Source of the DNA: a virus
Strand: one strand, 5' to 3'
Length of the DNA stretch: 49,563 nt
Virus record (IMG/VR): IMGVR_UViG_3300044984_001489
Span: 1 to 49,563 of that record
The notes under the pieces are model-generated. The model had not been told where the DNA came from. It saw only the letters and a list, made by a program, of their open reading frames with translations, and made no database searches. The translations under genes were made by a program, and so were the position numbers. Shown piece after piece: positions 5,508 to 37,770 of this stretch (its first letter is position 1; the number at the start of each line of letters is the position of its first letter).

Positions 5508-5521
5508 CCACTCAGACACTC

Positions 5522-5598
5522 GCCACCTCTTTCGAGGTGGCGTTTGTTTTCTTTTGTGTAGCGAGCACGCCGTGCTTGCACAAACTGGAGAAACAAAC
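5522..5598 (+). terminator. Terminator-hairpin connector 4
   Basis: GCCACCTC TTTC GAGGTGGC (5522-5541), GTTTGTTTTCTTTTGTG, then a GAGCACG/CGTGCTT second hairpin and ACAAACTGGAG before ATG 5599. Confidence 0.75.
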
Positions 5599-5787
5599 AT
5601 GTGGCCAACAGAACAACTCAGCCTCGACGAAATAGTCGCCCGTAATCGTGGAGACGCAGATTGGCGTGACAACGCGCCACTCAGCTCTGAAGGTAGCTAT
5701 CGACGTAAGTCGATGGAAGCCGAGCGTCCGAGCAAGTACGAGCCTGAACCTAACATCGACAAGTTCCGTTACGCGTCGATGCACTAA
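5599..5787 (+). CDS. Unknown small hydrophilic protein
   Basis: 62 aa, ATG 5599 set by CTGGAG eight bases upstream. Charged and Pro/Ser-rich (LDEIVARNRGDADWRD, EAERPSKYEPEPNIDKFRY), likely partly disordered. Flanked on both sides by connectors, i.e. a single-gene cassette. Family not recognised. Confidence 0.55.
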   Translation: MWPTEQLSLDEIVARNRGDADWRDNAPLSSEGSYRRKSMEAERPSKYEPEPNIDKFRYASMH

Positions 5788-5793
5788 CACCAC

Positions 5794-5877
5794 AGCCCTG
5801 CGCCTCGTGCGCGGGGCTACTTATTTGTTTTCTTGCGCGTAGCCACTTCCGCGCTACATCACTCAAGGAGTTTCACC
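5794..5877 (+). terminator. Terminator-hairpin connector 5
   Basis: AGCCCTGCGC / GCGCGGGGCT stem (5794-5818, one G-U pair), T-rich TTATTTGTTTTCTTG, then a GTAGC/GCTAC hairpin and AAGGAG before ATG 5878. The stem is unrelated to the others but the arrangement is the same. Confidence 0.65.
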
Positions 5878-7518: not shown

Positions 7519-10500
7519 ATGTTGATTCATTTCCTTGGGGCATCCGTGCCCCTAACAAAGTCGTTCGCGCTTGAAAAGTCAGGCGCTATTACCAAAGACG
7601 CGTACCCACTCGTTGAAGCTGTTAGCAGCTTCGATGAAGACATCGCCACAGCAGCAGAGTTCTACGCTGCTATCAAGCAACACGCAGCTCAAGGGCATTG
7701 CCTACTCAAAGGCCTGCTCTCACGCCCTCTGATGAAAGAGTCAAGGCGTGGCACCACCAAGACAGACGATGCAAGCAGCTGGGTCTGTCTTGATTTCGAC
7801 AGGCACGAGTCGCCCAGTATCGACGACACACTCAACCGTATAGGTCTGGGGGACGTGTCCTACGTCCTCCAGTACAGCGCCAGTCAGGGTATGCCTGACA
7901 CCGAGGGCACACTCAGTGCCCACGTCTTCATGTTGCTGACTAAGCCCGTCAGCGCACCGGATCTCAAAGCGTGGCTCATGGACATCAACCTCAAGTACCT
8001 GCGCGACGACATTCACTTGTCTCGCAGCAAGATGATGTTGAGCTGGCCGTTGGACATCACCACTTGTCAGAACGACAAGCTGCTGTACATCGCACCACCG
8101 GGGTTCAGGGGGATGAAGGATCCACTAACGACACGCATCGAGCTGTGTCCAAAGAAGATCCCCGCTATGCCTGTTGACCGCATTGGCGGCGCCCACATCA
8201 ACGCACTCAAACTTGCAGAGAGGAAGTTGCTCAATGAACTACGCAAAGGAGAAGACCTCCCTTCCAGGCTTGCCAAGACCTCATGGGTCGGCACTTGCGA
8301 GGTACAGAACAAGCCAGACGTATGTAGTGTCACCGGGATTAAAGAGACTGGTGATTATGTACGTCTTAATATCAACGGCGGTGATAGCTGGGCATATTGG
8401 CATCATCGTGACAGCTTTGAGCTGATCCATGACTTCAAGGCAGATGCTTGGTACAAGACCAAGGAGCTGTTACCTGCGTACTACGCAGAACTCATGGAAG
8501 CGCGTCAAGCGCTGACTGCGACACCGACAGAGGAAGGTGACCTCATCCTTGCCTTCCGTGACATGAAGACCGCTGAGTATTTCAACGGTCTGTGGAACCC
8601 TAACACGGGTAATCTGGAGCTACATCGTGCGCGTAACGAAACGCAACTTGATCATTGGATGCGTAGTCACGGTCGTGTTATTGGTGACTACATCCCAGTG
8701 TGGGACATGCGGTACGACCCTCTGGCGAGCTACCGGGTGGATGCCGAGAATCACGTCATTAACACCTTCATTTCGAGCCCGTACTACGACCTCGAACCAG
8801 ACGCAAAAGCACGCTTCCCAAAAATCGAGTACCTCATTAAGCACCTGCTTGGAATCAATGACGGATCACCAGAAAATGCCAAGTTGTATGAGCATTTTAT
8901 TAACTGGTTTGCTGTCGTATTCAAGCGCAAAGGTACCGCCAACCACCCTATAACCGCGTGGGTGTTGCAAGGTATCCAGGGATGCTTGGCTGGTGACACA
9001 GAGATCAATTTTCATCAGCAAAAGAAATCAGGTCGCCCGGTCAGTATCAAAACAGCCTTTGAAAAATTCAACGGCACCTATCAACTCGGCACAGGAAAAG
9101 GCCGTACTTGGAATACAACCAAGCCTGTTTACGCACAGTGCGTTAAAGATGAATTCACTGTTGGCTACAGCGAAATTTTAAGCATCGTCGAATCAGGTGT
9201 AAAAATGATTTATCGCGTTGTGTCCAGCGATGGTGGTTTGATTCGTGTGACGCACAAACATCCATTTATGCGCCCAGACGGTTCGTTCACACCTCTGTGC
9301 GATTTAAAACTGGGTGATAAAGTTCTTCGTCGCGGTGATGCGCTAGCCCACATACGCCACCCTAAAGGTCGTAATAAAAAGCGCGTGACAATTTATTCAA
9401 TCCAACATCATCCACACGCTTGGCAACACATCATCAATGGCAAGAACTACAAGCGTTCTCACAAAGCACGTCTTGTTTGGGAAGCATGGATGAACAACAT
9501 GTCGCTGGATCAATTCATTGATGTTTTGCGTAACGATCCAATAACAGCGTCAAAACTTACTTATCTCAGTGATGATTTGATTGTTCACCATATTGATGAA
9601 GATTGCACCAACGATGAGCTTGGCAATTTAACAACCATCGACAAACTCGATCACGACAAGCATCACGCTAAAGAAACCGGTCTGGGTACTATTTTGACCA
9701 AAGAAGTGTCAATTGTTTCCATAACAGAAGATTGTGAGGAAATGACTTACGACATGACCATGAAAGCTCCGTATCACAACTATGTGGCCAATGGTTTCTG
9801 TGTGAAGAACACAGGCAAGGGCTCCTTGTTCAACAAGATCATCCTGCCGTTGTTTGGTCACCAGAACGTCTTCGCTGCACAGGTGCAGAACATCGAAGAA
9901 GGCTTCAACGGCTGGCTGCAAAACAAGCAGTTCATCATGGTCGAGGAAGTTGACGTTGACGACTTCAAAGACAAGGGGCGCATCAGCGCCAAACTCAAAC
10001 AGTACATCACTGAGCCCAAGGTGCCGTTTCGTCAGATGCGGCAGACAGCGGTGTGGACTGACAACTATGCGAGCTTCCTGTTCGCGTCCAATAAACCTCA
10101 GCCCGTGCACATCGAGGCTAGTGACCGTCGTTACAACTGCGGTAACTACCAGCGCTTACGGCTGAACTATCCGGGAGATGAAGCCATTGAAAACGAACTT
10201 GAAGCATTTGCGAGCTTCTTGCTCGCGCACAAAGCGGACGCAGAACGTGCAAATCAAATTATCCAAACAGAAGCAAGAACGCGCATCCAGCAACTTGGTG
10301 TCACGTCTATTGACGAAACTTGCCGCTGGATCGTAGAGGGTGATTTTGAAGCACTCTGGTACTCCATGCCCGACGAGCAGGTAGTGCGCGAGTCGCCTAT
10401 TACCAACAGCGTTACTGCTGACGCTACGGCTTATATCACCCTCATGAAGCGCTTGCTTCATGATGTGGTGAACGAGCCAAAGAACCGTCTTTCTCGTGAT

Positions 10501-10719
10501 GAGATGTACATCCTTATCCAGTATCACGTCGGGCAGCTGTCCTCTGCCCCCGGCAAGTTCACCAGCTTGCTGCGTCATCACGGGATCGACACCAAGCAGA
10601 TTCGCCGCAACAACCAAAAGACTTACGGTATTGACGTTGAGTGGCACGTCAGCGAAGAGTTTTACGAAGAAGTTCTTAAACCGAAACTTAAATTGAAATC
10701 AATGAGGATGGTCAAATGA
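7519..10719 (+). CDS. Primase (AEP-like)-SF3 helicase fusion, intein-containing
   Basis: 1066 aa before splicing, 790 after. The N-terminal domain carries archaeo-eukaryotic-primase-type motifs: LDFDRH (D92, D94) and SAHVFML (S133-x-H135), then SWPLDIT. The C-terminal domain is a superfamily 3/DUF5906-type helicase. Its Walker A is GIQG-TGKGS, split exactly by an intein at residues 489-764. Walker B-like FIMVEEVD and the FASNKPQP sensor segment follow. Such fusions prime and unwind phage DNA. It stands at the head of the replication genes and shares an ATGA overlap with the gene at 10716. It probably acts at the origin near 4.3 kb with the split PolB. Activity requires intein removal. Confidence 0.9.
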   Translation: MLIHFLGASVPLTKSFALEKSGAITKDAYPLVEAVSSFDEDIATAAEFYAAIKQHAAQGHCLLKGLLSRPLMKESRRGTTKTDDASSWVCLDFDRHESPSIDDTLNRIGLGDVSYVLQYSASQGMPDTEGTLSAHVFMLLTKPVSAPDLKAWLMDINLKYLRDDIHLSRSKMMLSWPLDITTCQNDKLLYIAPPGFRGMKDPLTTRIELCPKKIPAMPVDRIGGAHINALKLAERKLLNELRKGEDLPSRLAKTSWVGTCEVQNKPDVCSVTGIKETGDYVRLNINGGDSWAYWHHRDSFELIHDFKADAWYKTKELLPAYYAELMEARQALTATPTEEGDLILAFRDMKTAEYFNGLWNPNTGNLELHRARNETQLDHWMRSHGRVIGDYIPVWDMRYDPLASYRVDAENHVINTFISSPYYDLEPDAKARFPKIEYLIKHLLGINDGSPENAKLYEHFINWFAVVFKRKGTANHPITAWVLQGIQGCLAGDTEINFHQQKKSGRPVSIKTAFEKFNGTYQLGTGKGRTWNTTKPVYAQCVKDEFTVGYSEILSIVESGVKMIYRVVSSDGGLIRVTHKHPFMRPDGSFTPLCDLKLGDKVLRRGDALAHIRHPKGRNKKRVTIYSIQHHPHAWQHIINGKNYKRSHKARLVWEAWMNNMSLDQFIDVLRNDPITASKLTYLSDDLIVHHIDEDCTNDELGNLTTIDKLDHDKHHAKETGLGTILTKEVSIVSITEDCEEMTYDMTMKAPYHNYVANGFCVKNTGKGSLFNKIILPLFGHQNVFAAQVQNIEEGFNGWLQNKQFIMVEEVDVDDFKDKGRISAKLKQYITEPKVPFRQMRQTAVWTDNYASFLFASNKPQPVHIEASDRRYNCGNYQRLRLNYPGDEAIENELEAFASFLLAHKADAERANQIIQTEARTRIQQLGVTSIDETCRWIVEGDFEALWYSMPDEQVVRESPITNSVTADATAYITLMKRLLHDVVNEPKNRLSRDEMYILIQYHVGQLSSAPGKFTSLLRHHGIDTKQIRRNNQKTYGIDVEWHVSEEFYEEVLKPKLKLKSMRMVK
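8983..9810 (+). other. Intein (276 aa) with in-frame HNH nuclease in the helicase P-loop
   Basis: Starts CLAGDTEINF (Cys1, block A), block B RVTHKHPFMRPDG, and ends MKAPYHNYVANG then VKN with Asn276, with Thr as the +1 residue. Removal regenerates GIQGTGKGS. Between blocks B and F lies an HNH domain (LIVHHIDEDCTNDELGNLTTIDKL...HDKHH, about residues 687-716 of the precursor). The segment is visibly more AT-rich than the exteins, as expected for an acquired element. Confidence 0.92.
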
Positions 10720-15094: not shown

Positions 15095-15366
15095 GATTAC
15101 TTGAACGAGTACGTGGAAACGTAGAGGCTGCACCTTGGGTGTTGTCAGAGATTTCTGCACTTGAGAGGAAGATCGAATCTCAGGCGCGAGAGATTGAGTA
15201 CGCTAACAACATCATCCGCAACCAAGAGGCGGCGCTGGAGGAACTCCGCACTGCGCTTATCGCGGCCAAAGAGGTGATTGACGACTATACGGGCGACCCG
15301 CCAAAGGATGCGTATGCCAGATACAAAGAAGCACTCACCCGATGTAAGGAGGTTCTATGCACATAG
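15091..15366 (+). CDS. Coiled-coil protein upstream of PolB
   Basis: 91 aa. Residues ~20-65 form a heptad-rich coil (ISALERKIESQAREIEYANNIIRNQEAALEELRTAL). The C-terminus overlaps the polymerase start by 10 bases, so translation is probably coupled. Function unknown. Confidence 0.55.
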   Translation: MRLLERVRGNVEAAPWVLSEISALERKIESQAREIEYANNIIRNQEAALEELRTALIAAKEVIDDYTGDPPKDAYARYKEALTRCKEVLCT

Positions 15367-16448
15367 TTTTCGACACGGAAATTCTTGGCTTACGGAAACC
15401 CGTGTTTCTTACATGCGCTAAGGTCGTTGAGACCGGTGAGCGCTTTACCTTTTGGCACGATAAGCGTGGGCACACAGCCAAGCTTGAAAAGATGTTGACC
15501 CAAGGCCACACGTGGGTCAGCTTCAATGGTACGAACTTCGATCAACCTCTCGTTGCCGCCGCAGTCATGGGCTACGACGAAGAAGATCTGAAGAAGATAG
15601 CCACTGAGATCATCGACAACGAGATGCGTAGCTGGCAGACATACCGCCAGTACAACCTCGACTATCTGAACTATGACCATATTGATCTGATCGAAACCGC
15701 CCCCGGCGTGATGGTCTCACTTAAGACTTACGCTGGGCGCATGGCGTTCCCAAGCATGGTCGATATGCCGTTCCATCACGACGATGAGATCGACACGCCT
15801 AAGAAACGCAAGATCGTTGAGGACTACTGCCACAACGACTGTGACGTGACTGAGGCGTTGTTCAAGAAGCTGTCGACTGAGATCGAGCTGCGTGAAGTCA
15901 TGGGCGTTGAGTACAACCTCGACTTCCGTAGTAAGTCTGACGCACAGATTGCCGAAGCCATTCTCAAACAAGAAGTTGGCATCAGCAACCAAGACAAGCA
16001 GGTACCCAACTATGTTGAGTACAAAGCGCCGTCGTTCATCAAGACGCGCAGCAAGGCACTCAAAGCATTGATCTATGCATTCGAGAACGAGTGCTTCGCC
16101 ATCAATCGCGGCAACGGCTCGCCCGTTGAAGCTGAGTGGATGAAGGAACCGATCAAGGTTGGCAGTGGTTTGTATAAGGTCGGACTGGGTGGGCTACATA
16201 GCCAGCACGACAAACGGCTTCACCTCGAAGCGTCCGAGAGCCTCCTCCTCTCGGACTTCGACGTTGCTTCGTACTATCCGAACATCATGATGAAAGCAGG
16301 CCTAATCCCTCGCCTCGGCGGTAACAAGGGTCAGCTCTTCCTTGATGAGTACCGGATGATCTACGACCGGCGTATGGCAGCAAAACGTCGAGCAGGAGAA
16401 ATCAAACGACAGATTTCTGAAATCGAAAAGAGATTGGCCAATGGCTAG
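15357..16448 (+). CDS. Family B DNA polymerase, N-terminal fragment (exonuclease + motif A)
   Basis: 363 aa. 3'-5' exonuclease motifs: Exo I FDTE (D6, E8), Exo II FNGTNFD (N57-D62), Exo III YCHND (Y157-x3-D161). Polymerase motif A is DFDVASYYPN, with D302 as a metal ligand. The frame stops at 16448 after a charged helix (EIKRQISEIEKRL), directly where an AP2/HNH gene begins (16441). Motifs B and C are on the next polymerase ORF (16823), in another frame. No intein blocks are present, so the two parts must either assemble as separate chains or be joined at RNA level. Split PolB with a homing gene between the parts is known in some T4-like phages. Confidence 0.88.
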   Translation: MHIVFDTEILGLRKPVFLTCAKVVETGERFTFWHDKRGHTAKLEKMLTQGHTWVSFNGTNFDQPLVAAAVMGYDEEDLKKIATEIIDNEMRSWQTYRQYNLDYLNYDHIDLIETAPGVMVSLKTYAGRMAFPSMVDMPFHHDDEIDTPKKRKIVEDYCHNDCDVTEALFKKLSTEIELREVMGVEYNLDFRSKSDAQIAEAILKQEVGISNQDKQVPNYVEYKAPSFIKTRSKALKALIYAFENECFAINRGNGSPVEAEWMKEPIKVGSGLYKVGLGGLHSQHDKRLHLEASESLLLSDFDVASYYPNIMMKAGLIPRLGGNKGQLFLDEYRMIYDRRMAAKRRAGEIKRQISEIEKRLANG

Positions 16449-16911
16449 AACATACCACCCAAGAGGCGAACTCGTTGAAGGGTTTGCTCCGCGAAAACAT
16501 CCTTTGTATTACACATGGGCAAACATGCTTTCACGATGTAGTAATCCAAAAGCACCTAACTATGCTGATTATGGTGGTCGAGGGATCTTTGTCTGTCAGC
16601 GTTGGTTTCATTTCAAAAACTTTGTCGAAGACATGGGTATTAAACCAAGTGACAATCATTCTATTGACAGAATAAATAATGACTTGGGTTACTCACCCGC
16701 TAATTGCAAATGGTCGACTCGAAAAGAGCAGAACTCGAACAAGCGACTGTATCGAACTTCAGAAACTGGGTACGCAGGAATTCGTACTCGTGATGGTAAA
16801 TATCAAGTGCGGGTGACAATTCATGGCAAAAGAAAATCAATCGGTAACTACCAAACCATTCAAGAAGCTCTCAACGCAAGAGCGCCTTACATTGGAAAAA
16901 CAACTATCTGA
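16441..16911 (+). CDS. HNH endonuclease with AP2 domain, splitting the polymerase
   Basis: 156 aa. HNH core: YYTWANMLSRCSNP, NYADYGGRGIFVCQRW, then SIDRINNDLGYSPANCKWST with the HNH-type D-R-I-N-N-x-G-x-Y segment. The C-terminal part GYAGIRTRDGKYQVRVTIHGKRKSIGNYQTIQEA is an AP2 DNA-binding domain. It starts 8 bases before the end of the N-polymerase ORF and overlaps the start of the C-polymerase ORF (16823). AT-richer than its neighbours. Probably a homing endonuclease whose insertion split PolB. Confidence 0.9.
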   Translation: MARTYHPRGELVEGFAPRKHPLYYTWANMLSRCSNPKAPNYADYGGRGIFVCQRWFHFKNFVEDMGIKPSDNHSIDRINNDLGYSPANCKWSTRKEQNSNKRLYRTSETGYAGIRTRDGKYQVRVTIHGKRKSIGNYQTIQEALNARAPYIGKTTI

Positions 16912-17812
16912 ATTGAAGGCTGAGTATAAACAACAGCAAGGAATTTCAAATAGTCTAAAAATTACGCTTAATGGCACGTTCGGTAAGCTGGGTAGCATCT
17001 ACTGTGCGTTCTACAGCCCCGACCTGCTTATTGCTGTGACCATCACGGGTCAGCTCAACCTGCTCTGTGTCATCGACGAGTTGGAGAAGTTGAAGGATGT
17101 GCGTGTCGACTCAGCGAACACAGACGGTGTGCTGGTGGCTTACCCGCCTGCACAACGGCAGGCTGTGTTAGACGTGTTCGCTCGTAATGCCAAGCGCACG
17201 GGTTTCGAGTACGAAGAGACACCGTATCGCAAGATGGCTATGAAGGACGTGAACAACTACATAGCCATCACCACAGACGGCAAGGCTAAGACCAAAGGGC
17301 TGTATGCAGACGCAGGCCTTATGAAGAACCCAACGATGCAGGTCTGCTCTGACGCAGTCGTAGCTTACCTGCGTGACGGTGCAGACATTGCCGAGTACGT
17401 TCAGACCTGTGACAAGCCTGAAGACTTCATGGCGATACGCAACGTTAAGGGTGGTGGCGTGCAGCACAAGAAGATGGAGTTGGTCGACGACTGGGAACTA
17501 GCTGAAGACTACGGCACTAAGGAGAATTTGTGGCAATCACCCTCGACAGGCAAGTATGTAACCCGCAAGTCGCGCCCTAAACCGTTTGAAGCCTTCAGTG
17601 GCGGTGTACCCTTCGGTCGCGTCGCTCGGTGGTACATGACGACCCAGTCGATGCCACCCATCAGTTATATCGGATCAGGCAACAAGGTTCCCAAGACAGA
17701 AGGCGCGAGGGTCTGCATGACCTTGCCCGACACGCTACCGACTGATCTCGATATTGACTGGTACGTCGGTGAAGCACATCAAATTCTTTCAGATATTGGT
17801 GTTGTAATCTGA
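16823..17812 (+). CDS. Family B DNA polymerase, C-terminal fragment (motifs B and C)
   Basis: 329 aa from ATG 16823. Motif B is SLKITLNGTFGKLG (K46, N50, G51). Motif C is SANTDGVLV with D101 (NTDG in place of the usual DTDS). A C-terminal thumb-like region follows. The first ~35 residues (AKENQSVTTKPFKKLSTQERLTLEKQLSE) are encoded over the tail of the HNH gene and were probably acquired with it. KQLSEL repeats the pattern RQISEI near the end of the N fragment, so the junction seems partly duplicated. ATG is the only ATG before motif B; a TTG at 16914 is an alternative. Confidence 0.85.
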   Translation: MAKENQSVTTKPFKKLSTQERLTLEKQLSELKAEYKQQQGISNSLKITLNGTFGKLGSIYCAFYSPDLLIAVTITGQLNLLCVIDELEKLKDVRVDSANTDGVLVAYPPAQRQAVLDVFARNAKRTGFEYEETPYRKMAMKDVNNYIAITTDGKAKTKGLYADAGLMKNPTMQVCSDAVVAYLRDGADIAEYVQTCDKPEDFMAIRNVKGGGVQHKKMELVDDWELAEDYGTKENLWQSPSTGKYVTRKSRPKPFEAFSGGVPFGRVARWYMTTQSMPPISYIGSGNKVPKTEGARVCMTLPDTLPTDLDIDWYVGEAHQILSDIGVVI

Positions 17813-21812: not shown

Positions 21813-21869
21813 TTCAAACCCTGTGGCAAGACCAAGGCCTTGTCACGCCTACGAATCCAAGGAACTCTT

Positions 21870-23456
21870 ATGCTTTTCATTAACATGCAGACGAACGAAC
21901 ACGAACTTCGTCACCTTTTCTGGATTTCAACTTATTCGGATGAGCAGCGACTGGTCGAGTACGATCTCATTGATCGCGCCAAGCAGTTTCACATTTGGTG
22001 GAATGATCAGCGCGCGACTAAGTTCTCAAAACTGCGTTATCTCCACTCAATACGGCTGAATGGTGCAAACGCCAGATATCACCGATCATCACTTCGCAAC
22101 CTTAAAAAGATCAAAAGTCTTTGCAAGCAAATTGCTGTTGTGCGCGAAGACTCTTCCGAAGTCTGTCTACTACTCAATGACTTGCGATTTCACGACCAAG
22201 CGTTCGCACAGGCGATTCGATCAACGCTGAACCATGACGATATTTTGGTCTGTGACGACTGCGGTGAGTTCTACGATGAGAGTGATAACCACATAACTGT
22301 CGACGACCGTAACATCTGTGAGTCGTGCTGCGACGATAACTACCGATACTCGTCCTGTATGGACGGATACATCCGCAGTGCCAACGCGTTTGACGTTTAC
22401 GACTCATCGTATTCCTACCGCAACGAAAACCCTGACGATGTGTGTACCTCGCGGTATGGAAACAGTAACTTTGAGCAGTACGACAACGTGTACTTCAGCG
22501 ACATTGACGCGTACTACGAAGTTTCAGACTCTGATAACGATGACGAAGATCGTGAGGATGAAGAGGCTGACGACTACCTGCCGAGCTGGCACAATGCGAC
22601 GCGCAACTTCGTCACCAAGAACAAGACGGGTAAGTACCCAGCGCTAGGTGCTGAGCTTGAAATCTACGTGCCTTATCGAAACGACTTTGTGATCGAGACG
22701 CGCTCTGAGTTCGATGTCATCCTTGAGAAAGACGGCTCCATTGACGACTACTGCGGTGTTGAGATCATCACCAACCCGCTGGGTCGTGAGGAGTGGGCCG
22801 TGCTTGCGCCCGCGCTGTTCGAGCACATTCACAACCACAAAGGGGTTGGCTATAACGAGCCTGCGGGTGACAGCTACGGTATTCACCTGACGATCAGCCG
22901 CGAGCATCTGTCGCCGCTGGCCGAGGCCCGCATCGCTATGTTCTTGTGCGACTCAGCCAATGCCAGCTTTGTCAGAGCCGTGTCACAGCGCAATCAGATT
23001 TACTCATCGAACCATGGCGTTGGGTTTAACGAGACTTTGCACCCAGTTGTTAGTACGATCAGTTCTGAAATGTCATATCGAATGCGTAACGGTGTACGGC
23101 AGAAAAAGATTTACGGTCGCGGTAAATATTGCCCGGTTAACTTCAAAGAGAACTTGGCTGAGTTTCGCATTTTTCAATCCACAACCAACGAGACAAGTTT
23201 CCAAAAGAACCTTGAGTTCGTCTGGGCACTTTGGGCTTGGACCAAGCCTGAAACGGCCAGTGGTTGTTCACACAGCTATGTTGATTTCCTGACATGGCTC
23301 AACAAGCGTCAACAGCGCAAAGAGTTTCCCGAACTCGTGCGCTTTCTTTCCAAGCGTGTGTTTTACGGCACCAACTACAACCCCATCATTTCCTCATGGC
23401 AAGGTCTGATGACCAAGCCGAACGAGCTTGAGGCTTGCGAGCCGATGGCCGCTTAA
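21870..23456 (+). CDS. Amidoligase-family enzyme with Cys-rich insert
   Basis: 528 aa; ATG 21870 set by AAGGAACT. The N-terminal ~125 residues are helical. A Cys-rich zinc-ribbon-like part (CDDCGEFY...ICESCC, ~128-152) and an acidic linker (~218-235) follow. From ~255 comes the amidoligase domain: YPALGAELEIYV, EKDGSID..GVEIITNPLG, GDSYGIHLTIS and LAEFRIFQST. This matches the GCS/glutamine-synthetase-like amidoligases proposed to ligate amines or peptides with ATP. The class II glutamine amidotransferase at 23891 would supply ammonia. Substrate unknown. Confidence 0.8.
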   Translation: MLFINMQTNEHELRHLFWISTYSDEQRLVEYDLIDRAKQFHIWWNDQRATKFSKLRYLHSIRLNGANARYHRSSLRNLKKIKSLCKQIAVVREDSSEVCLLLNDLRFHDQAFAQAIRSTLNHDDILVCDDCGEFYDESDNHITVDDRNICESCCDDNYRYSSCMDGYIRSANAFDVYDSSYSYRNENPDDVCTSRYGNSNFEQYDNVYFSDIDAYYEVSDSDNDDEDREDEEADDYLPSWHNATRNFVTKNKTGKYPALGAELEIYVPYRNDFVIETRSEFDVILEKDGSIDDYCGVEIITNPLGREEWAVLAPALFEHIHNHKGVGYNEPAGDSYGIHLTISREHLSPLAEARIAMFLCDSANASFVRAVSQRNQIYSSNHGVGFNETLHPVVSTISSEMSYRMRNGVRQKKIYGRGKYCPVNFKENLAEFRIFQSTTNETSFQKNLEFVWALWAWTKPETASGCSHSYVDFLTWLNKRQQRKEFPELVRFLSKRVFYGTNYNPIISSWQGLMTKPNELEACEPMAA

Positions 23457-23483
23457 CTTTACCCACCACTCTAAGGAACTATC

Positions 23484-23834
23484 ATGAACTCTGCTGCAAT
23501 CGAAGTAATCCGTCACTCCCTCAACGCTGCCTCTGCGGCTCTTTCACTGCTTGATACCCGACCCGTCGTTGAGAAGATCATCGTTGAGGAAGTCGTTGAG
23601 GAAGTCGTCGTCGATAACGCGCCTGTACCGAACCTTGACGAAGAGCTGTTCTACAAGCTCATGGGGGAGCTTGACGGGGAATACAAGCTACGCACCATCT
23701 CTGAATTGACTGCCAAGCTGGGCATCTCGCACAGCAAGATGTTGCAGTTGCTGGCCATCAACGATGTTGATCACGTCACCAAGATTCGTCGTTCGGATAA
23801 CGCGCCGCTCATCGGTCTTGGTTCACGCAACTAA
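23484..23834 (+). CDS. Small protein between amidoligase and amidotransferase
   Basis: 116 aa with CTAAGGAACT before ATG. N-terminal helix, a Val/Glu-rich repeat (VEKIIVEEVVEEVVVD), then a helix-turn-helix-like segment (TISELTAKLGISHSKMLQLLAINDV). Position suggests a partner or substrate of the flanking enzymes; it could also be a regulator of the cluster. No family named. Confidence 0.55.
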   Translation: MNSAAIEVIRHSLNAASAALSLLDTRPVVEKIIVEEVVEEVVVDNAPVPNLDEELFYKLMGELDGEYKLRTISELTAKLGISHSKMLQLLAINDVDHVTKIRRSDNAPLIGLGSRN

Positions 23835-23846
23835 ACAAATTTGGGT

Positions 23847-23863
23847 GGAGGGCTTTGCCCTCC
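23847..23863 (+). terminator. Short hairpin before the amidotransferase gene
   Basis: GGAGGGC TTT GCCCTCC, 7-bp perfect stem without a T tract; may act as attenuator or mRNA-stability element. Confidence 0.45.
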
Positions 23864-23880
23864 GCTCTAACAAACTCTGA
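23864..23880 (+). repeat. ACTCTGA direct-repeat motif, copy 5
   Basis: GCTCTAACAAACTCTGA (two mismatches) runs directly into the AGGAAC ribosome site of the amidotransferase gene. Confidence 0.5.
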
Positions 23881-23890
23881 AGGAACTGCT

Positions 23891-24826
23891 ATGTGTTTGC
23901 TCGTCAGTCAACCCGCAACAACCAAATTCGACGACGCCTTTATCAAGGGCGTCTACAACCTCAATTCTGATGGTCTTGGCGTGATGTATGCCGAAGACAG
24001 CTCGCTGTTCATCCGACGAATCGTTCCAACTACGGAGGAAGAATTCGTCAAGTTTTTCCGTGAGAACGTAGAAGGTCGTGCCTGTGCTTGGCATGCTCGC
24101 ATGAAGACGCACGGCCACATCGATCTGACCAACTGTCACCCGTACCAAGTCATCAGCGCTGAGGAAGGCTACCCGCTGTACCTCGCGCACAATGGTGTGC
24201 TGCACACAGGTAACAACAAAGACAAGTCGAAGTCAGACACGTGGCATTTCATCCAAGACTACCTCCGACCGATGCTCTTGAAGAACCCTGAGTTCTTCAT
24301 GACCGAGGCTTTCTCCGACCTCATTGGTGACTTCATCGGTACAGGTAACAAGTTCATCCTCATGGACGCCTATGGCAACACCGTGACGATTAATGAAGAC
24401 CAAGGGGTTCAGCACAAAGGTGCGTGGTTGTCGAACACTTACGCTTGGGACACCGAAGGCACTGAGCATGATGTTTACGGCGGCGGTTACGGTTATCGCT
24501 CGAAATTCAGTCGTTCTGCTTACAGCGCGTACAAGCCGAACAGCTACTACGGGGTGTTCGACAAGGACGACAAGGATGACCTCCTTAGTGAGCTTACCAG
24601 CGACATGCCTGATGAAGTTGATGAGTGGTCTGACGCCTTGTTCAAAACACTGAACGACTTTGGACTCAAGTGTGACCAGAGCATCACCAAGGACGATGCT
24701 GAGATGTACTTCCTGTCAGCGGGTTACGAGCTGGCTTGGGAAGTGATTGAGGCGATTCAGTACGGCGCTTATACACGGGCAGAGATCATCGACGAGATTA
24801 CCTTCTACTCGAAGGCTGCGGCATGA
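23891..24826 (+). CDS. Class II glutamine amidotransferase (Ntn hydrolase)
   Basis: 311 aa from ATG 23891 (AAGGAACT upstream). This start leaves Cys2 (MCLLVSQP) as the N-terminal nucleophile after Met removal, which the family needs. Further signatures: LNSDGLGVMY, CAWHARMKTHG, DLTNCHPYQV and LYLAHNGVLHTG. The C-terminal ~120 residues (Tyr/Gly-rich then acidic helical) are extra. Expected reaction: glutamine to glutamate plus ammonia, channelled to the amidoligase at 21870. Overlaps the next gene by ATGA. Confidence 0.88.
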   Translation: MCLLVSQPATTKFDDAFIKGVYNLNSDGLGVMYAEDSSLFIRRIVPTTEEEFVKFFRENVEGRACAWHARMKTHGHIDLTNCHPYQVISAEEGYPLYLAHNGVLHTGNNKDKSKSDTWHFIQDYLRPMLLKNPEFFMTEAFSDLIGDFIGTGNKFILMDAYGNTVTINEDQGVQHKGAWLSNTYAWDTEGTEHDVYGGGYGYRSKFSRSAYSAYKPNSYYGVFDKDDKDDLLSELTSDMPDEVDEWSDALFKTLNDFGLKCDQSITKDDAEMYFLSAGYELAWEVIEAIQYGAYTRAEIIDEITFYSKAAA

Positions 24827-25399: not shown

Positions 25400-25695
25400 G
25401 TCGTTTCGACGACATTCGCAGCTGGGCCCACGAGCGCAATATCGTCTTCGGGGCCACGCCTGAAAAGCAGTTCGTCAAGCTGATTGAAGAAGTGGGTGAA
25501 CTGGCTGAAGGTATTGCCAAAAATCGCCTTGACGCTGTGTACGACGGCATTGGCGACGCTGTGGTGGTGCTGACTATTCTTGCCGAGCAGTTCAACGTCA
25601 GCATCGAGCACTGCATCGAGCTGGCGTGGGACGAGATCAAAGACCGTAAGGGTCGGCTAATTGATGGGACTTTCGTAAAGGAGTCGGATCTATGA
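25396..25695 (+). CDS. mazG: MazG-like nucleoside triphosphate pyrophosphohydrolase
   Basis: 99 aa. KLIEEVGELAEGIAK (E31, E32, E35) and DAVYDGIGDAVVVLTILAEQ (D50, D54) form the E-x2-E and D-x3-D metal site of the all-alpha MazG/dUTPase-like fold. It hydrolyses (d)NTPs or alarmone-like nucleotides to monophosphates. ATGA overlap with both neighbours. Confidence 0.9.
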   Translation: MSRFDDIRSWAHERNIVFGATPEKQFVKLIEEVGELAEGIAKNRLDAVYDGIGDAVVVLTILAEQFNVSIEHCIELAWDEIKDRKGRLIDGTFVKESDL

Positions 25696-26057
25696 GTATG
25701 GTGCCGTCAAGCGAACTTCACTATGCGTGGGCCGCTGGAATTATTGAGGGCGAAGGTTGTTTTATTTTTAGCAAAGATAAACGCAACAACCATCACACAA
25801 CAGCGGTTCAAGTCGAGATGACTGACGAAGATGTTTTGAAACGTCTTCAGCTGCTGTTTGGCGGCACCATTGTTACAAGTAACTATCCGTCGAAGCTCAT
25901 TAAAAACCCAAACGGTAAGCCGTCTTGGCGATGGAAAGTCATGCGTCAAGCAGACGTCTTTGACTGTCTTTTGAGAATTATGCCGTTTTTAGGTGAGCGT
26001 CGACTTCAACGAGCAGGCGAACTGCTCACCTATCTTGAACCAAAGGTTTTGAAATGA
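25692..26057 (+). CDS. LAGLIDADG-family homing endonuclease
   Basis: 121 aa with a strong AAAGGAG ribosome site. The motif YAWAAGIIEGEGCFIF is a LAGLIDADG helix (G-II-E-GEG). Then beta strands (TTAVQVEMTDEDVLKRLQLLFGG...SWRWKVMRQADVFDCLLRIMPFLGERR) as in single-motif, dimeric enzymes. It is free-standing between mazG and the 26054 gene, joined to both by ATGA-type overlaps, so it is a clean insertion into the operon. Confidence 0.88.
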   Translation: MSMVPSSELHYAWAAGIIEGEGCFIFSKDKRNNHHTTAVQVEMTDEDVLKRLQLLFGGTIVTSNYPSKLIKNPNGKPSWRWKVMRQADVFDCLLRIMPFLGERRLQRAGELLTYLEPKVLK

Positions 26058-30261: not shown

Positions 30262-33200
30262 CTATGCGTTTCCAAGCCTTTCAAGCCTGCGTAGCATACT
30301 GCCTCCCGGTAGCGCGCCCAGACCCTCGCCTATCACTGTGTGGTCACGCATGGCCATGAACTCACCAAACGGTACTGACAGGATGTTCTGGAGCTGATCC
30401 ACGGTTGGCCCTGCCAAGGTAGCAGGATCGAACGCTGCGCCTGCCTTGCCGAAGTTTAAGCCCGGTATCTCAGACACGTCCACCAAGTTGCCCAGCATCA
30501 TCTGTGGCACGCCCAGCACCCCGGCGCGGCCAAAGCCATACTGGAGGTACCCGTCAAGACCACCTTTCATCCAAGGTGGCTCCTCACCGGGGATCAGCAT
30601 CTCCTTGATAGCCCCGGCAGCGATGGCGATAGGCATGTAGCCCAGACCCATGGCCATCACCGGGCGGTAGTTGCCTAGACGGGCTTGGTCGGCAGCGTTC
30701 TTCATCATCACGCGATGGAAGCTGTAGCTGTAGCTCTTGAGCTGAGCAAACACGGCGTAGTGTGGGTCGCTCATCCAGATCGTGCGGTGAGCTGCTGTTG
30801 GCGCCGCTACAGCGGTGAGCACCCAGCGTGTTACAGCGGCTTGGTTGGCAGCGTTCTTCTCAAGGTTGCCGTCAGGGCCAAACTTGATGTTTTTCGGGTC
30901 GAATCCTTTGCCAAACAGGTCTTCCATGCGCGACACAGCCGCTTTGTCGTTGGTGTCGATACCGTTCTTCGCCCACCCGCTAATGATGCGCACCGCCACC
31001 TGTGTGGCAGCGGCGCGTACACCACGGTTCCAGCCCACCATACCGTTGTACTTGAACAGCTTGTCGCTCAAGACCTTGGCCTTACCTGACATGAAGGGTG
31101 AGCCTTGGGCCTGTGCGGTGCTCTCAAGGTACGCCCCTGAGTCGACAGTACCCCAGAACTCAGCGTCGGCCACCGCCGCGCTTGGATCTTTCTTGTCAAA
31201 GATCGTGTTGCGAATCTCGCGGATGCCTTCAACAAACCCTGTCCAAGCGTCCTTAGCCTCGCCACCGTTGACCACCAGACCGACAACGTCTTGGAAGTTG
31301 GTGAACAAGCTCGTCGCCATCAAGCGGAACGACTGGTAGGTGACAATCCAGCTACTGACAGCCCGTGCGTTGGGTGAAATCTCACGACCCAGCGTACCCT
31401 CAAGCGCCTGAATAGCCTTGAAGCTGTTTTCAAGCTTACCCATCGCCTTGAGCAGTGCGGCGTCGTGCTTCTCTTGACCAACACCTGCAACGTGCATGTC
31501 TTGACCGACAGAGCGCAGGGTTGGGAATGGCTCGCTGAAGTCGTCACCCACAGCAGCCTTCTGTTTCGACCACTTCTTACGAGCTGCCTCCAGACCCTTT
31601 TCAGCCTGTTCAACCAAGGCGTCACCACCTAGCTCGAACAACACAGCCTTGTCAGCCCCCTCAGCGATCTTCCCGCCGTCCGGGCCGAAGCGACTCTGGT
31701 ACTCACCGCGCTTGACGATACTGTGCGCGTAGGTCGTCATGATCGAGGTGAGGTCTTTCTCCTTGTACTTGTCGAACACGTCCTTGTCCAGCCAGTTCAG
31801 CTCGCGCTTGTTGACCGCGCTAGACGCCGGGGTGATGCCCAGACCGCTGTTGCTCTCGGAGATTTCAATGTGGCCGTTGGAAGCCAGCAACCGTGTGGCG
31901 ATAGCGTCGGCAACCATCTCAGCAGTGATGGTCTGAAGGTTCAGCTTGGCCATGACCTTACCTGAGTCTTTGAACTCTTGCTCAGCCCGGTCGAACTCAG
32001 CCCGTGCCGCAGTGCCCTTTTCAGGCAGCTTGTCAGCTTTGACTTCCTTGTTCGCTTCGTCGGCGATGTGCTGAAGCTCACGAGAGTGGTGCTTGAGCAG
32101 GCTCTCTTTGAACCCAGCCATGTCACCCATCAGCGCGTCGACGGACCAGACTTGCGGCAGGTAGTTCTTGCGCAGGGGGATGTCCTCCCACACACCTTTC
32201 ATGCCGGTCTCAGAGTCTATACGATCCATGTTCAAGCGCTTGACGCCCTTCTCGGCCATGTAACCAGCCATCTCGCTGTAGAACGCGTTGATCTTGGCGA
32301 CCAGCTCCTTGGCCACACGGTCGGTTGGCTCCGTTTCAGTTGACATCGCCTTACGCGCCATCTCGATGTCTTCTGGGCTGTAGCCGTCGAGGATGTTCTC
32401 TACTTTGTGCACCCAGTGGCTCGTAGCCTGACGGAGTCCGTCAGAGTATGAGCCGTAGGAAGACCCGACCTTACGCATGGCTGTACCGATCTTCTGGTGG
32501 AAGCCCCGCGCTATGTCGACCATGTGCTTGTTGTTCGTCGCGTCCATCATGGCTTCGTTCGAGAACACCAGCTTACCGGCAGCGTTGGCAAAGTTCTGGA
32601 AGGTCTCACCTACCCGCTCAACAGCAGCGTTGTGGGCCTCAGTGTCCTTGTTGATAGCGGCCACCACAGCTTGACGGGTGTCAGCGTTTGCCACCGCGCC
32701 GTCAGAGAACTGACGCATGAGCCGCTCGGCATGACCTGCCTCCAGCTGCTCACGGCTCATGGCTTCAACCTCCTTGCGGAAGGTCTCGCTGAATACAGCA
32801 GCGACGCGCTTGAGGCCGTTCTTGATCATCTGGAAGATGCTCTTCGTCTCAGGCCCAATCTTCAACGCACCGGCCTGCCAGAACTGATACATGAACGCAG
32901 CTGCTTCTTCGTGGTTGGCCAGCTGCTTGATAGCCTCTGGGTGACCGTCAAGCAGACGCTCCAGCTTGCGCTGGATGATTGGGTTCATGGCGGCACGCTT
33001 CATCACATCGACCGAGGCCTTGCCACCGTTCTTCTCCAAGATGTTGACAAACTCATGGAAGGACTCATGGAAGGCGGCACCGAGCACGTCGCCGTTGAGC
33101 GCTAGCTTGATGGTGTTCTTTACCTGCCCCGGCGTCCATTCACCAGAGCTGTCGGTCATGCGCTTGAACAGCGTGGTGATGTTGTCACCCAGCGCCTTGA

Positions 33201-36200
33201 GGATGTGCTCCTTGGCAGCAGCTACTTGCTCGTGGACCTTGCCCTTGGCTTGGTTCTTGGGTTGCTGGGTGGATTGTTTGCCACCCTCAAGCGACCGCAA
33301 GCGCTCGTAGTTCTCAGCGCGTGCCTTGTTTAGACCCGCCAGAGCCTCTGCTTTCGACAGACCGTGCCGCTTAGCGTAAGCCCCTAGCTTTGTATTGCTA
33401 CCAAGTATGCTGTCGATCTTGTCGACAGTGGCGCGTGCTTCTAGCAATCCTTCGGTGGATTTGCTCGCAGCCACTCCGGTTTTAGATGATCCGGTGTTCC
33501 CAGTTCCTTGGGCCTGCCCCACGACGGATATGGCGCTCTCCTCGCCTTGATCATTCGCAGCGTTGCCGCTATTTCCTCCGGGTCTCCCGACAGGAGAGCC
33601 TTGTCCACTTCCTCTTGCGTTGTTAGCATTTGCTTCCTCCAAAGAGGAAATCTTACCGCTGATCAGATCGGCTGTGTTACCCAACCTGACTTTTAGTTCT
33701 GCCGCCTCCGCTTTATCGAGTGTGTACAGCGAGGCCAGTTTGTCGACCGACAACTCTGCAAGGCCGATGGTGTGCACTTCTTCGTAACGATCCCCGACGT
33801 ACTTTGTTGTCTTGCTAACAACATCGTGGTCACCCTTTTTCTGCGTACTTGGGACGTACTCAGCGATTTTGTTCATCCGCGTGGTACCAAGAATGGCTAT
33901 GTCAAAAATCTCACGATTTTCTTGCGATAGCGTTGCGCGCCCACTCATCAAAGAGGCCACGCTCTTTTGCAGCGCAGCCACGATACGGTCTTTTACATTC
34001 TCCAGTTTGTCCTCAGCCTTCGGCTGGGCAGATTCCTTCTTGGCGGTAGACACTTCATGTGTGCTTGGCAAGACATGGGGGTCGACCTTAGTGCCTTCGC
34101 GTGAGCGCGTACTGCCCGGACCACCGTAACCAGCGCCAGCTGCGTCAGCACCTAAACCAATGCGTGCTCCGTCCGGTCCGCGCTCAACTTCCTTCTTACC
34201 CTTCGTGCTCGACTTTTGATACTTGACGAGGTGTTCCATCTCTTCAGCTCGAAGCGCTTTCAACGTGTCTGACTGCGCCTTGCTCAACGCTGGGCCATCT
34301 CCGGTGACAGCCTCGCGGTACAGCTTCTCAAGACGAGCCAGTTGCTTCTCCTTTGGAAACTTAACAAGCAGCTGCCCGGTGTACTCTGTGTCCGACACTG
34401 ATAGATCACCGTCCTCAGCTTCAATGCGACCCTGCGCCTCGCTCGGTGCAGGTACGCCTTCTTTCTGACCCTTGCGACGCATCTCAGTGGTCTTCTCGGT
34501 GTCGTACTCTGTCGTCGGGCGAGCGAAGGTAATGTCCTTCTTCGACATTGGCGTGCCACCAAAGTCGTCAGGCGACCCTTGCCACTTGTTACGTTCCTTG
34601 CGGTAAAACTGTAGTACGGCTGGTGCGCCTTTTTTTAAGGCTTCGTAAATTTTGTAAGCACGACCAGAACTCGTTGTCTCGCGCTGAGCAAGTTCCAACA
34701 GCGCCTGAACACGCTCCTTGTGGTTCTCGGCGAAGCCAATACCAAATTCGGTCGGCTTCTCCTCACGACGCTCAATGTCAGCCTGTGTCTTGGCGTCACC
34801 GACAGTATGTTGACGACCGAGCAGCATCTCCTTGGGGAGCCGTTCGAGGTTCTCAACCCACTGAAGCGGTTGACCCGGAGCAGTGCGGTAGCCAATGCGA
34901 CTGGTGAAGTTTCCACCCTCGGCCAGCATCAAGTCGGTCAGTGCTGACATGACCAGATCAGAGCTGCCTAGCGCACCACGGCGCTTGCCTTCGAGCGTGG
35001 TGCCTGTTGGACCGTCCTGATTCTCGAAGTTACCTGTCGGGAACACGCCGCCGTCTTTACCTTTGGCGCGTGTGCCGTTCTCTGTGAAGATGCCCTGCTT
35101 GCGCAGGCTGTCGGTACTGACAGGGAAGTGTGTCACGCCCTTGCTACCGTTGCGCTCAAGGAACAACACGCCGTTCTGCGCGGTGAAGGTCTCAGGTTTG
35201 GCGTCCTTCGGGTTCCACTTGAACGAGTCAATGTCTTGGATGTTGTGCCGTGAGTCGCCGCTGTCAGGCTGTGTCACCTCAAGGTAGCGGAACTGCTTGT
35301 CGATTTGACCGAGTAGGGCCGCGCGCTGACGTTTCGACAAGTCGCCAATGTCGATTGTGCCTTCAGAGAATCCTTTGATAAGGGTTTCATATTTGCCTTG
35401 ATGGCTAAGCTTCGGCCCGAAGCTCTCAAGCAGGTCGTAGCCTGCTTGCTCGATGGCTGCTGCGTCGTTGTTCAGGTCTTTCTTGGTGCGCGACCAGATG
35501 CCAGCGTCGACAACGCTGTTGCCCAGCTCGCTTGAGTGCTGGGCCTTCACAGCCTCGTACTTCTCGATACCTTTGTCAAAGCCGAGGTTGAACGGGATAC
35601 CAACGCGACCTTTTGGGTTCGTAAAGCCGACGATCTTCGGCCCTTTGATCTCACTAACACTGGCACCTGCACCGTACTTGTTGACGATCAGCTCACCGTC
35701 TTCGTCGAACTGCTGCTCAGGCACGACGTTACCATCAGCGTCGATCTCGACTTGATCCTTACCACCGCCAGTCGCCTTCGACACGAGCTTCTTGTGCTCA
35801 CCCGTGTCAATGTAGGCATTCATCACGTTGTGCAGGCGTTCCTCAGTGCCGAAGAAGTTGTCGATCAAGCCCTGCTTGACCTTCGCCGACATCCCCTCCT
35901 GTACGACGGTCTTCATCATAGGCACGAGCTTCTTCACCGCGCCGTCCACATCCTTGACACCGTGTAGCGCGATGTCGCTCAGGTTGTTCTTCAGAGCGCT
36001 TTTGATTATCTGCTCTTTGTTCGAGGCGAAGGTGATGAGCGCCTCAATGTTCTTAGCCGCCTCTGGCCGGTTCTCCACCAGCCCGTTGCGCGTGGCTAGG
36101 CCGTAGGCTTTCTTAAACAGGGAAGCGCTACCTTCACCGAAACGCTCAACGATGGCGCCGACAGCCTGCTGGTGATCTTCCATACCGCTGTTGATCCAGT

Positions 36201-37770
36201 TCAACATACCTGCGAGCTGGATCTTGTTGTGCTCACCGTTTGTCGCCTTAATGATCTTCTCGTCGACACCCTGCTTGACCATGATGTCTGTCAGCGTATT
36301 TATCTTCTGCTGCTGAGCTTCAGGCTTGAGTAGCTCAGACTCAAGGTACATGCGGTCTGAGGGACGCATCTCAGACTTCTTCGAGTTCTGCCCCAACCCC
36401 GTGAGCAGCGCGTCGGTCTCTTTCTCAGCGACCTTGTCGTTCTGCGTCTGGTGCAGCTTCGTCTGAAACTCAACCGCGTCGATCTTACCAGCGGCGTACT
36501 GCGAGGCCAGTGACTTCTCAGCCTCTGTGCTGTCGCGCCCAGCCTTGAGAATCGTCGCAGCGTCATCTTTGAGCTTGTTCTCGTGGTGAGCGTTGAAGCT
36601 CTGATCGTCCATCTGATTCTCTTCGTCGCTTAGCGGCGATGTGCTCTTCAGGTCAGACTTACCGGCCAGCGTGGCTTGAATTTGCTCAAGGCGGCCTTGG
36701 TCAATCTCGTCTTGCGTCAGACCCTTGGACTTCAGCTCGCGCTCGTCGAAGTAGTTATCTACCTTCGCCTTCAGCGTGCCAGCCTTGGCAGCAAGGTCGA
36801 CACCCGCGTCGAGCACCGTGCCTAGTGGGTCGGAGGCAACGTCGCGCGCGGTGTCTGTGACCTTGTCGACACCCCTGCCTAGCATGCCGTAACCCGCGTC
36901 AGCACCTGCGCCGACAGCACCCATACCGCCGCCTGCGATGGCACCGGCAGCGGCCTCGTTGAGAGCCTGCTTGTAATCGTAGTTGGTCAGGTCGTCCTGA
37001 TTCAGCCAGTTCTGTGCAGACTGCCCGGTTAGACTCTGAGCACCTTCTGTAGCGCCTTCTGTCAGCATGTCTTGGCCGACGCGCTTGGCCATACCGGCTT
37101 TGGTCAGCTGCTTCGCGCCCATACCCGTCAGACTCTTGACGACGCCGAACGGCACAGCCGCTTCGAGTGCCCCGCCAACAATAGCGTTGCCCATACCTGC
37201 GTTGCCAATGTCTTCGTAGCTACGCGTGGCACGGATGTTCTCGTCCTGCATCGCTTGGGCGACTGTCTCGTCGTACATCTGGTTGCCGCCGACCAGCGCT
37301 GAACCAATCCGCGCGCCAGCCAGAGCCCCCGGCGCAGCGCCGACTCCACCCATGAGCGCACCACCGACGCCGCCGATGGCCGCGCCAGCTAAGCCGCCGA
37401 GGGCTGAGGGTACCGACGAGCGGATGCCACCCAGCGCACCACCGACGTAGTCGATGGCAGAACCGAGACCTCGCACATCGCTCGCGTCACGAACAGTCGG
37501 CGCCCACTGCTGCGCCTGTGCGCCGAGGTCGCGCGCTTGCTGCTCGTAGATCAGACCGCCTTCAGTGTCGCCAGCAGCATGGGCTGAACGAGCTTTTGCC
37601 CAGAGCGTGTTGGCTTCGTCACCTAACCCTGCTGAAGTCCAGCCTCGACCAAACTGCGACGAGGCGTTGACCTGTCCAGCAAGATCAGCATCAAGGTTGG
37701 CTTGAGTGTATAGCCCAGCTGCGTCGTTAGATAGGGTGAGCGCTCTCTGTGGTGCGAGTTCAAGTGGCAT
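30262..37770 (-). CDS. 2502-aa internal virion / polyvalent protein with a HExxH metalloprotease-like motif
   Basis: Very large virion-associated protein, last of the late operon. Residues ~100-170 and ~270-295 are Gly/Ala-rich hydrophobic glycine-zipper segments (LGGLAGAAIGGVGGALMGG) suited to crossing membranes during DNA ejection. The middle is long, charged and helical. HESFH at 1568-1572, with N-H-E-E at 1619-1622 downstream, is a HExxH zinc-peptidase signature like the MPTase domain of phage polyvalent proteins. No lysozyme or RNA-polymerase motif was recognised. Size and position match podovirus ejection proteins. A 3-bp gap separates it from the 920-aa gene. An ACTCTGA motif lies inside at 32431-32447. 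Confidence 0.72.
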   Translation of the reverse strand: MPLELAPQRALTLSNDAAGLYTQANLDADLAGQVNASSQFGRGWTSAGLGDEANTLWAKARSAHAAGDTEGGLIYEQQARDLGAQAQQWAPTVRDASDVRGLGSAIDYVGGALGGIRSSVPSALGGLAGAAIGGVGGALMGGVGAAPGALAGARIGSALVGGNQMYDETVAQAMQDENIRATRSYEDIGNAGMGNAIVGGALEAAVPFGVVKSLTGMGAKQLTKAGMAKRVGQDMLTEGATEGAQSLTGQSAQNWLNQDDLTNYDYKQALNEAAAGAIAGGGMGAVGAGADAGYGMLGRGVDKVTDTARDVASDPLGTVLDAGVDLAAKAGTLKAKVDNYFDERELKSKGLTQDEIDQGRLEQIQATLAGKSDLKSTSPLSDEENQMDDQSFNAHHENKLKDDAATILKAGRDSTEAEKSLASQYAAGKIDAVEFQTKLHQTQNDKVAEKETDALLTGLGQNSKKSEMRPSDRMYLESELLKPEAQQQKINTLTDIMVKQGVDEKIIKATNGEHNKIQLAGMLNWINSGMEDHQQAVGAIVERFGEGSASLFKKAYGLATRNGLVENRPEAAKNIEALITFASNKEQIIKSALKNNLSDIALHGVKDVDGAVKKLVPMMKTVVQEGMSAKVKQGLIDNFFGTEERLHNVMNAYIDTGEHKKLVSKATGGGKDQVEIDADGNVVPEQQFDEDGELIVNKYGAGASVSEIKGPKIVGFTNPKGRVGIPFNLGFDKGIEKYEAVKAQHSSELGNSVVDAGIWSRTKKDLNNDAAAIEQAGYDLLESFGPKLSHQGKYETLIKGFSEGTIDIGDLSKRQRAALLGQIDKQFRYLEVTQPDSGDSRHNIQDIDSFKWNPKDAKPETFTAQNGVLFLERNGSKGVTHFPVSTDSLRKQGIFTENGTRAKGKDGGVFPTGNFENQDGPTGTTLEGKRRGALGSSDLVMSALTDLMLAEGGNFTSRIGYRTAPGQPLQWVENLERLPKEMLLGRQHTVGDAKTQADIERREEKPTEFGIGFAENHKERVQALLELAQRETTSSGRAYKIYEALKKGAPAVLQFYRKERNKWQGSPDDFGGTPMSKKDITFARPTTEYDTEKTTEMRRKGQKEGVPAPSEAQGRIEAEDGDLSVSDTEYTGQLLVKFPKEKQLARLEKLYREAVTGDGPALSKAQSDTLKALRAEEMEHLVKYQKSSTKGKKEVERGPDGARIGLGADAAGAGYGGPGSTRSREGTKVDPHVLPSTHEVSTAKKESAQPKAEDKLENVKDRIVAALQKSVASLMSGRATLSQENREIFDIAILGTTRMNKIAEYVPSTQKKGDHDVVSKTTKYVGDRYEEVHTIGLAELSVDKLASLYTLDKAEAAELKVRLGNTADLISGKISSLEEANANNARGSGQGSPVGRPGGNSGNAANDQGEESAISVVGQAQGTGNTGSSKTGVAASKSTEGLLEARATVDKIDSILGSNTKLGAYAKRHGLSKAEALAGLNKARAENYERLRSLEGGKQSTQQPKNQAKGKVHEQVAAAKEHILKALGDNITTLFKRMTDSSGEWTPGQVKNTIKLALNGDVLGAAFHESFHEFVNILEKNGGKASVDVMKRAAMNPIIQRKLERLLDGHPEAIKQLANHEEAAAFMYQFWQAGALKIGPETKSIFQMIKNGLKRVAAVFSETFRKEVEAMSREQLEAGHAERLMRQFSDGAVANADTRQAVVAAINKDTEAHNAAVERVGETFQNFANAAGKLVFSNEAMMDATNNKHMVDIARGFHQKIGTAMRKVGSSYGSYSDGLRQATSHWVHKVENILDGYSPEDIEMARKAMSTETEPTDRVAKELVAKINAFYSEMAGYMAEKGVKRLNMDRIDSETGMKGVWEDIPLRKNYLPQVWSVDALMGDMAGFKESLLKHHSRELQHIADEANKEVKADKLPEKGTAARAEFDRAEQEFKDSGKVMAKLNLQTITAEMVADAIATRLLASNGHIEISESNSGLGITPASSAVNKRELNWLDKDVFDKYKEKDLTSIMTTYAHSIVKRGEYQSRFGPDGGKIAEGADKAVLFELGGDALVEQAEKGLEAARKKWSKQKAAVGDDFSEPFPTLRSVGQDMHVAGVGQEKHDAALLKAMGKLENSFKAIQALEGTLGREISPNARAVSSWIVTYQSFRLMATSLFTNFQDVVGLVVNGGEAKDAWTGFVEGIREIRNTIFDKKDPSAAVADAEFWGTVDSGAYLESTAQAQGSPFMSGKAKVLSDKLFKYNGMVGWNRGVRAAATQVAVRIISGWAKNGIDTNDKAAVSRMEDLFGKGFDPKNIKFGPDGNLEKNAANQAAVTRWVLTAVAAPTAAHRTIWMSDPHYAVFAQLKSYSYSFHRVMMKNAADQARLGNYRPVMAMGLGYMPIAIAAGAIKEMLIPGEEPPWMKGGLDGYLQYGFGRAGVLGVPQMMLGNLVDVSEIPGLNFGKAGAAFDPATLAGPTVDQLQNILSVPFGEFMAMRDHTVIGEGLGALPGGSMLRRLERLGNA
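32431..32447 (-). repeat. ACTCTGA motif, copy 7 (inside the 2502-aa gene)
   Basis: ACTCTGACGGACTCCGT, one mismatch in each half; same orientation as transcription. Confidence 0.45.

Follow-up and report, generated by a model that had tools for sequence, protein, structure and literature searches.

What do an amidoligase gene and an amidotransferase gene do together in this virus, and is the small protein encoded between them the one that they modify? The window that we analyzed is a 49,563-base viral contig. Its replication genes are on the + strand and its structural genes on the – strand, and an integrase is encoded at ~29 kb. At 21870-24826 on the + strand, we found three co-directional ORFs that encode P0001 (528 aa), P0002 (116 aa) and P0003 (311 aa), each preceded by a leader of the same type:

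21859..21872, + strand: Shine-Dalgarno leader AAGGAACTCTTATG of the amidoligase gene (DNA pattern search).
21870..23456, + strand: P0001, amidoligase-family protein, 528 aa (profile, hhalign and tblastn homology).
23473..23486, + strand: leader AAGGAACTATCATG of the middle gene, P0002 (DNA pattern search).
23484..23834, + strand: P0002, 116-aa orphan (codon usage supports coding).
23880..23893, + strand: leader AAGGAACTGCTATG of the amidotransferase gene (DNA pattern search).
23891..24826, + strand: P0003, class II glutamine amidotransferase, 311 aa, Cys2 nucleophile (PF13230, PDB profile matches, invariant columns).

All three ORFs are present where the first-pass annotation had placed them, and their in-frame codon scores are positive, each above the scores of its other five frames. 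An upstream TTG at 21840 is a possible start for P0001; the leader favors the ATG at 21870. The similarity of leaders that had been described for these genes was also found, as AAGGAACT-N3-ATG at each gene with the start codon 11 nt past the first leader base. There are four copies of AAGGAACTNNNATG in the window as compared to 0.02 expected; three are at the P0001, P0002 and P0003 genes and the fourth belongs to a – strand late gene at 46793. This leader is a Shine-Dalgarno variant, the phage's own style of ribosome site, and it is shared beyond the operon. We considered and dropped the idea that it marks a private regulon because the same leader precedes the late gene at 46793; AAGGAACT is thus no proof of a special regulon.

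P0001 alone has zero matches in Pfam, PHROGs and NCBIfam, and we found no match to Pfam PF12224 even at E 1 for the whole protein or at E 10 for its catalytic part. When P0001 was compared with a profile of 74 relatives from which it had been left out, it matched with E 3.5e-39 (hmmsearch) and its catalytic part alone matched with E 7e-23, and shuffled and reversed P0001 controls gave no matches to this profile. Profile-profile comparison with the relatives gave a probability of 98.4% (hhalign), and tblastn matched P0001 to MEP401/402 and to the ligase of Acinetobacter phage 313. The relatives, the nearest included, match Pfam PF12224 (Amidoligase_2). We assign P0001 to this family because it is homologous to proteins that match PF12224, though it does not match the model directly. 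Judged by its sequence, P0001 is an amidoligase by descent, and the homology is not due to chance. Scans of IMG/VR and GTDB genomes with P0001 as a single protein found no relatives; relatives of both enzymes were reached solely by alignment-based scans. The layout of P0001 is that of its relatives. A variable, helical N-terminus is followed by a CxxC...CxxC module, then by an acidic linker and finally by the catalytic domain, and two of these parts can be placed on the DNA:

22251..22328, + strand: Cys motif C128-x2-C131 ... C150-x2-C153 (the four Cys are kept in 69-76 of 78 relatives).
22617..23369, + strand: amidoligase catalytic region, residues 250-500 (alignment columns).

The Cys motif is probably a zinc-binding module. 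In the catalytic region, P0001 keeps G260-x-E262-L-E264, D288-x-S290, E298, H339, R374, N424 and E431-x-R433 (alignment columns). A search of PDB sequences with the amidoligase profile found nothing credible. The AlphaFold model of P0001, made from a 10-row alignment, has a pLDDT of 42.6 and is too poor for use, and a Foldseek search of PDB with this low-confidence model gave no match with E ≤ 0.001.

P0003 matches Pfam PF13230 with E 1.5e-5, above the cut-off, and the profile matches in PDB are chains of glucosamine-6-phosphate synthase and PurF. The protein begins with M1-C2, Cys2 is invariant in the 74 relatives, the glutamine site (R70-x2-T73-H74-G75, N101-G102 and D116) is present, and 36 of 37 invariant columns are kept. 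On these matches and residues, P0003 is a class II (Ntn) glutamine amidotransferase with an intact glutaminase signature, in agreement with the earlier description of an Ntn amidotransferase with Cys2.

Starting from the amidotransferase, we found the amidoligase immediately upstream on the same strand in 95 of 98 IMG/VR loci, and the remaining three are cut off by the contig end; many of the 98 contigs are near-duplicates, so there are fewer independent linkage events than 95/98 suggests. The usual spacing between the two genes in this set is 3-60 nt or a slight overlap. Starting from the amidoligase, 75 of the 76 viral loci with both genes were scored as adjacent, and in the exception (L137) the amidotransferase lies, on reading, 90 nt downstream. 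Three amidoligase-seeded viral loci are without an amidotransferase, and in these the contig ends ≤12 nt from the amidoligase. Loci from bacterial genomes have a same-strand amidotransferase in 68 of 80 cases, within 150 nt in 49. In a Flavobacteriaceae MAG, a cluster at 1243-6565 (L215) combines an amidotransferase gene with an ATP-grasp-like gene and two amidoligase-like ones.

Among close relatives of the pair, there are 0 loci with a gene between the two enzymes, and we saw intervening genes or a scattered arrangement in remote phages only (Rhizobium RHph_N3_13, a Christensenellales phage and StenR_269). Gene order and strand in our virus are those of the standard module, with the amidoligase first and the amidotransferase on the same strand; the interval from P0001 to P0003 is 434 nt and holds the 116-aa gene, as compared to about –9 to 60 nt in close relatives. 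When we clustered the ORFs within 5 kb of the pair, just the two enzymes recurred across most loci, and the next commonest flanking cluster reached ≤21 of 106 loci, many such clusters being shadow frames. Because no small family consistently flanks the pair, the module is not accompanied by a small substrate of its own. Taken together, reciprocal linkage in more than 150 loci and intact glutaminase residues strongly support that the amidoligase and the ammonia-producing amidotransferase are one functional module, as the first-pass annotation had assumed.

The two enzymes are well established as a phage module, known from phiEco32, Marvin, LUZ24-like phages and MEP401/402, and since such pairs are already published, our finding is a member of a known module type. 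What is unusual here is the interrupting P0002 gene together with an eroded or altered ligase, in one virus. Pairs of PF12224 and GATase have been described in OM43 phages (PMC10580990), and that paper cites the suggestion that they serve in cell-wall modification against superinfection (phiEco32) or in making secondary metabolites (Marvin). The pair is annotated in phages elsewhere, with a larger cluster in LUZ24-like phages (PMC3890496, PMC3517423), and Pa11-type podoviruses carry similar amidoligase/amidotransferase annotations. In the OM43 phages MEP401 and MEP402 (PMC10580990), a PF12224 amidoligase is followed by a class II amidotransferase in the early region, and tblastn matches both P0001 and P0003; however, their genes overlap with nothing between them and their amidoligase has the HxH and TxExR residues. 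The early region of the LUZ24-like phage UFV-P2 (ORF23-29; PMC3890496) has Amidoligase_2 and GATase_6 with a small gene between them, but this gene is an HNH endonuclease unrelated to P0002, and there are extra ATP-grasp, COOH-NH2 ligase and cyclotransferase-like genes. Podovirus ctgrD200 (MW202733) is the best phage-record match to P0003 (31.8% over 83%) and has an amidoligase directly upstream; unlike our virus, it is without a middle gene and its amidoligase has the conserved residues that P0001 lost. Gene 116/117 of the mycobacteriophage Marvin type (Beelzebub record) are likewise an adjacent amidoligase-like gene and amidotransferase, although their sequence is very distant and about 78 nt separate them without a middle gene. 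The pair is widespread in phages, and any tractable member matters for finding its target.

The explanation that we favor, and think probable, is a two-enzyme glutamine-dependent amide-forming module with a drifted amidoligase and an inserted P0002 that is not a general substrate. We base it on homology, linkage, the residues kept and lost and the orphan status of P0002. P0003 would split glutamine via Cys2 and release ammonia, and P0001, which is predicted to belong to a glutamine-synthetase-like class, would activate an acceptor carboxylate with ATP and join the ammonia to it. Acceptor choice probably lies with the zinc module of the amidoligase and with its variable N-terminus. Because no acceptor is encoded beside the pair, it would most likely come from the host (a cell-envelope building block or a protein) or be a phage protein whose gene lies elsewhere. 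The more than 150 loci indicate that the module can do without a small substrate gene of its own alongside, so the acceptor is better sought in the host or at a distance in the phage. In this virus, the ligase would have diverged strongly, and a small early gene that is unrelated to the enzymes would have been inserted between them. The chemistry with the best support is that glutamine provides ammonia, which is transferred to a carboxylate activated with ATP; we infer the reaction, the acceptor and the benefit to the phage. MurT-GatD, in which the folds of both parts differ from those of this pair, is an analogue and not a homologue. Its likeness to the pair is that an ATP-dependent synthetase fed by a glutamine amidotransferase amidates a carboxylate, in that case in peptidoglycan (PMC3267633).

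P0001 is an outlier in its family: it has lost 7 of 29 near-invariant residues, and no other sequence in the set has lost as many. At H341 (the second His of HxH) P0001 has Thr and at T429 (the T of TxExR) it has Leu, whereas all 74 relatives have His and Thr at these positions; position C336 is Tyr (alignment columns). In glutamine synthetase, the two His of the HxH-type motif have different roles: the first is a metal ligand and the second is in contact with the nucleotide. Because of this nucleotide contact, the H341 change could weaken or alter ATP use by P0001. The divergence of the two enzymes is correlated across locus pairs (r 0.94), and locus pairs with amidotransferases that are 45-55% identical have amidoligases that are 47 ± 4% identical (764 pairs). 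In contrast, in the six such pairs that include this virus, amidoligase identity averages 22%, and the terminal branch of this virus is 2.25 in the amidoligase tree as compared to 0.92 in the amidotransferase tree. From the residue losses, H341 and T429 included, P0001 may be inactive or have another function. The earlier label of an ATP-dependent amidoligase is right as a family; this copy, however, is without residues that every one of the 74 relatives has, so its activity is less certain than had been assumed. The natural loss of H341 and T429 provides ready-made positions for testing which residues the ligase requires.

These losses raise the alternative that P0001 is decaying or is no longer an ATP-dependent synthetase, with P0003 acting as a glutaminase alone or with another synthetase. 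Consistent with this, HxH has become HxT and TxExR has become LxExR among the seven lost positions, amidoligase identity is about 0.22 where the divergence of the partner predicts 0.47 ± 0.04, and P0003 still has 36 of its 37 invariant columns. However, the P0001 frame is open across 528 codons with phage-like codon use. It also still encodes the metal-type acidic residues, the first His, the Arg and every Zn cysteine, unlike in random decay, and we think decay unlikely. Most likely, the locus is a glutamine-dependent carboxylate-amidating module whose synthetase is altered or weakened in this virus.

It also seems rather improbable that a gamma-glutamyl-type peptide or a small metabolite is what the module makes or trims. 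Clusters of amidoligase, amidotransferase, ATP-grasp and gamma-glutamyl cyclotransferase genes in Stenotrophomonas phage StenR_269, Rhizobium phage RHph_N3_13 and UFV-P2 point in this direction, but we scanned the neighbors of the pair in the window and found no ATP-grasp peptide ligase or cyclotransferase gene beside it, so this is the minimal pair only. PADLOC gave no match to a defence system.

A third reading, which we regard as quite unlikely, is that P0001 represents a sub-branch in which the ATP/metal site has been remodelled (HxH to HxT and TxExR to LxExR), with the 116-aa protein as a partner or regulator, and that its reaction is unlike that of the standard module. The insertion and the altered ligase are seen in one virus, and the collections may omit its nearest relatives; our amidoligase scan patterns demanded HxH or TxExR, so a sister clade changed in both may be missed.

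The middle protein, P0002, has a codon score of 0.33 bits/codon in frame, and the Val/Glu repeat that had been described in it is present, although it amounts to one short feature:

23583..23606, + strand: two exact 12-nt copies coding VEEV VEEV (printed sequence).

We found no P0002 homologues in 50,697 phage records, no relatives in IMG/VR by peptide-pattern scan and none when every ORF of the first 107 loci was compared. The AlphaFold model of P0002 alone has a pLDDT of 44, with low-confidence helices at 53-61, 69-79 and 83-92. The C-terminal half (TISELTAKLGISHSKMLQLL) may read like a helix-turn-helix, and P0002 is perhaps a DNA-binding regulator, a small early gene unrelated to the enzymes. 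Since P0002 is absent from close loci and has no detectable relative, it is a lineage-specific insertion in this virus and not the general or conserved substrate of the module; its absence from close relatives means that it cannot be required for module function elsewhere. The proposal of the first-pass annotation that P0002 is the natural substrate modified by both enzymes draws on its position between the enzyme genes with the same leader type and on a Glu-rich stretch that supplies side-chain carboxylates, but it is very unlikely to be correct because P0002 is missing from all close relatives, whose enzyme genes directly adjoin, is without a homologue in the phage records, in IMG/VR and in the loci that we fetched, and is replaced by no small family elsewhere, and because the leader is also found at an unrelated late gene.

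Between 15000 and 37000 in the window, there is no DNA-level match among phage records. The DNA polymerase is found in two ORFs (15357-16448 and 16823-17812, + strand) that match consecutive parts of phrog_1252, and between them is a 156-aa ORF (16441-16911, + strand) of no known family and with no Pfam match; the split at 15357-17812 looks like an intron or homing-type interruption. In a 1066-aa protein (7519-10719, + strand), one frame holds matches to primase (residues 748-874) and to HNH endonuclease (residues 627-725), an arrangement that resembles an intein or an endonuclease insertion. A few genes downstream of P0003, there is a LAGLIDADG-like endonuclease (25692-26057, + strand; E 6e-4, just under the Pfam cut-off). 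On the – strand, a 2502-aa protein (30262-37770) has a weak match at residues 113-455 to phrog_2206, a virion RNA polymerase family (E 2.9e-11), and the end of the same protein matches a virion structural family. A late protein (40567-42498, – strand) shares 43% identity with proteins of the Pseudomonas phages Epa33 and vB_PaeP-D14S, which points to a structural module of the Epa33/vB_PaeP-D14S lineage.
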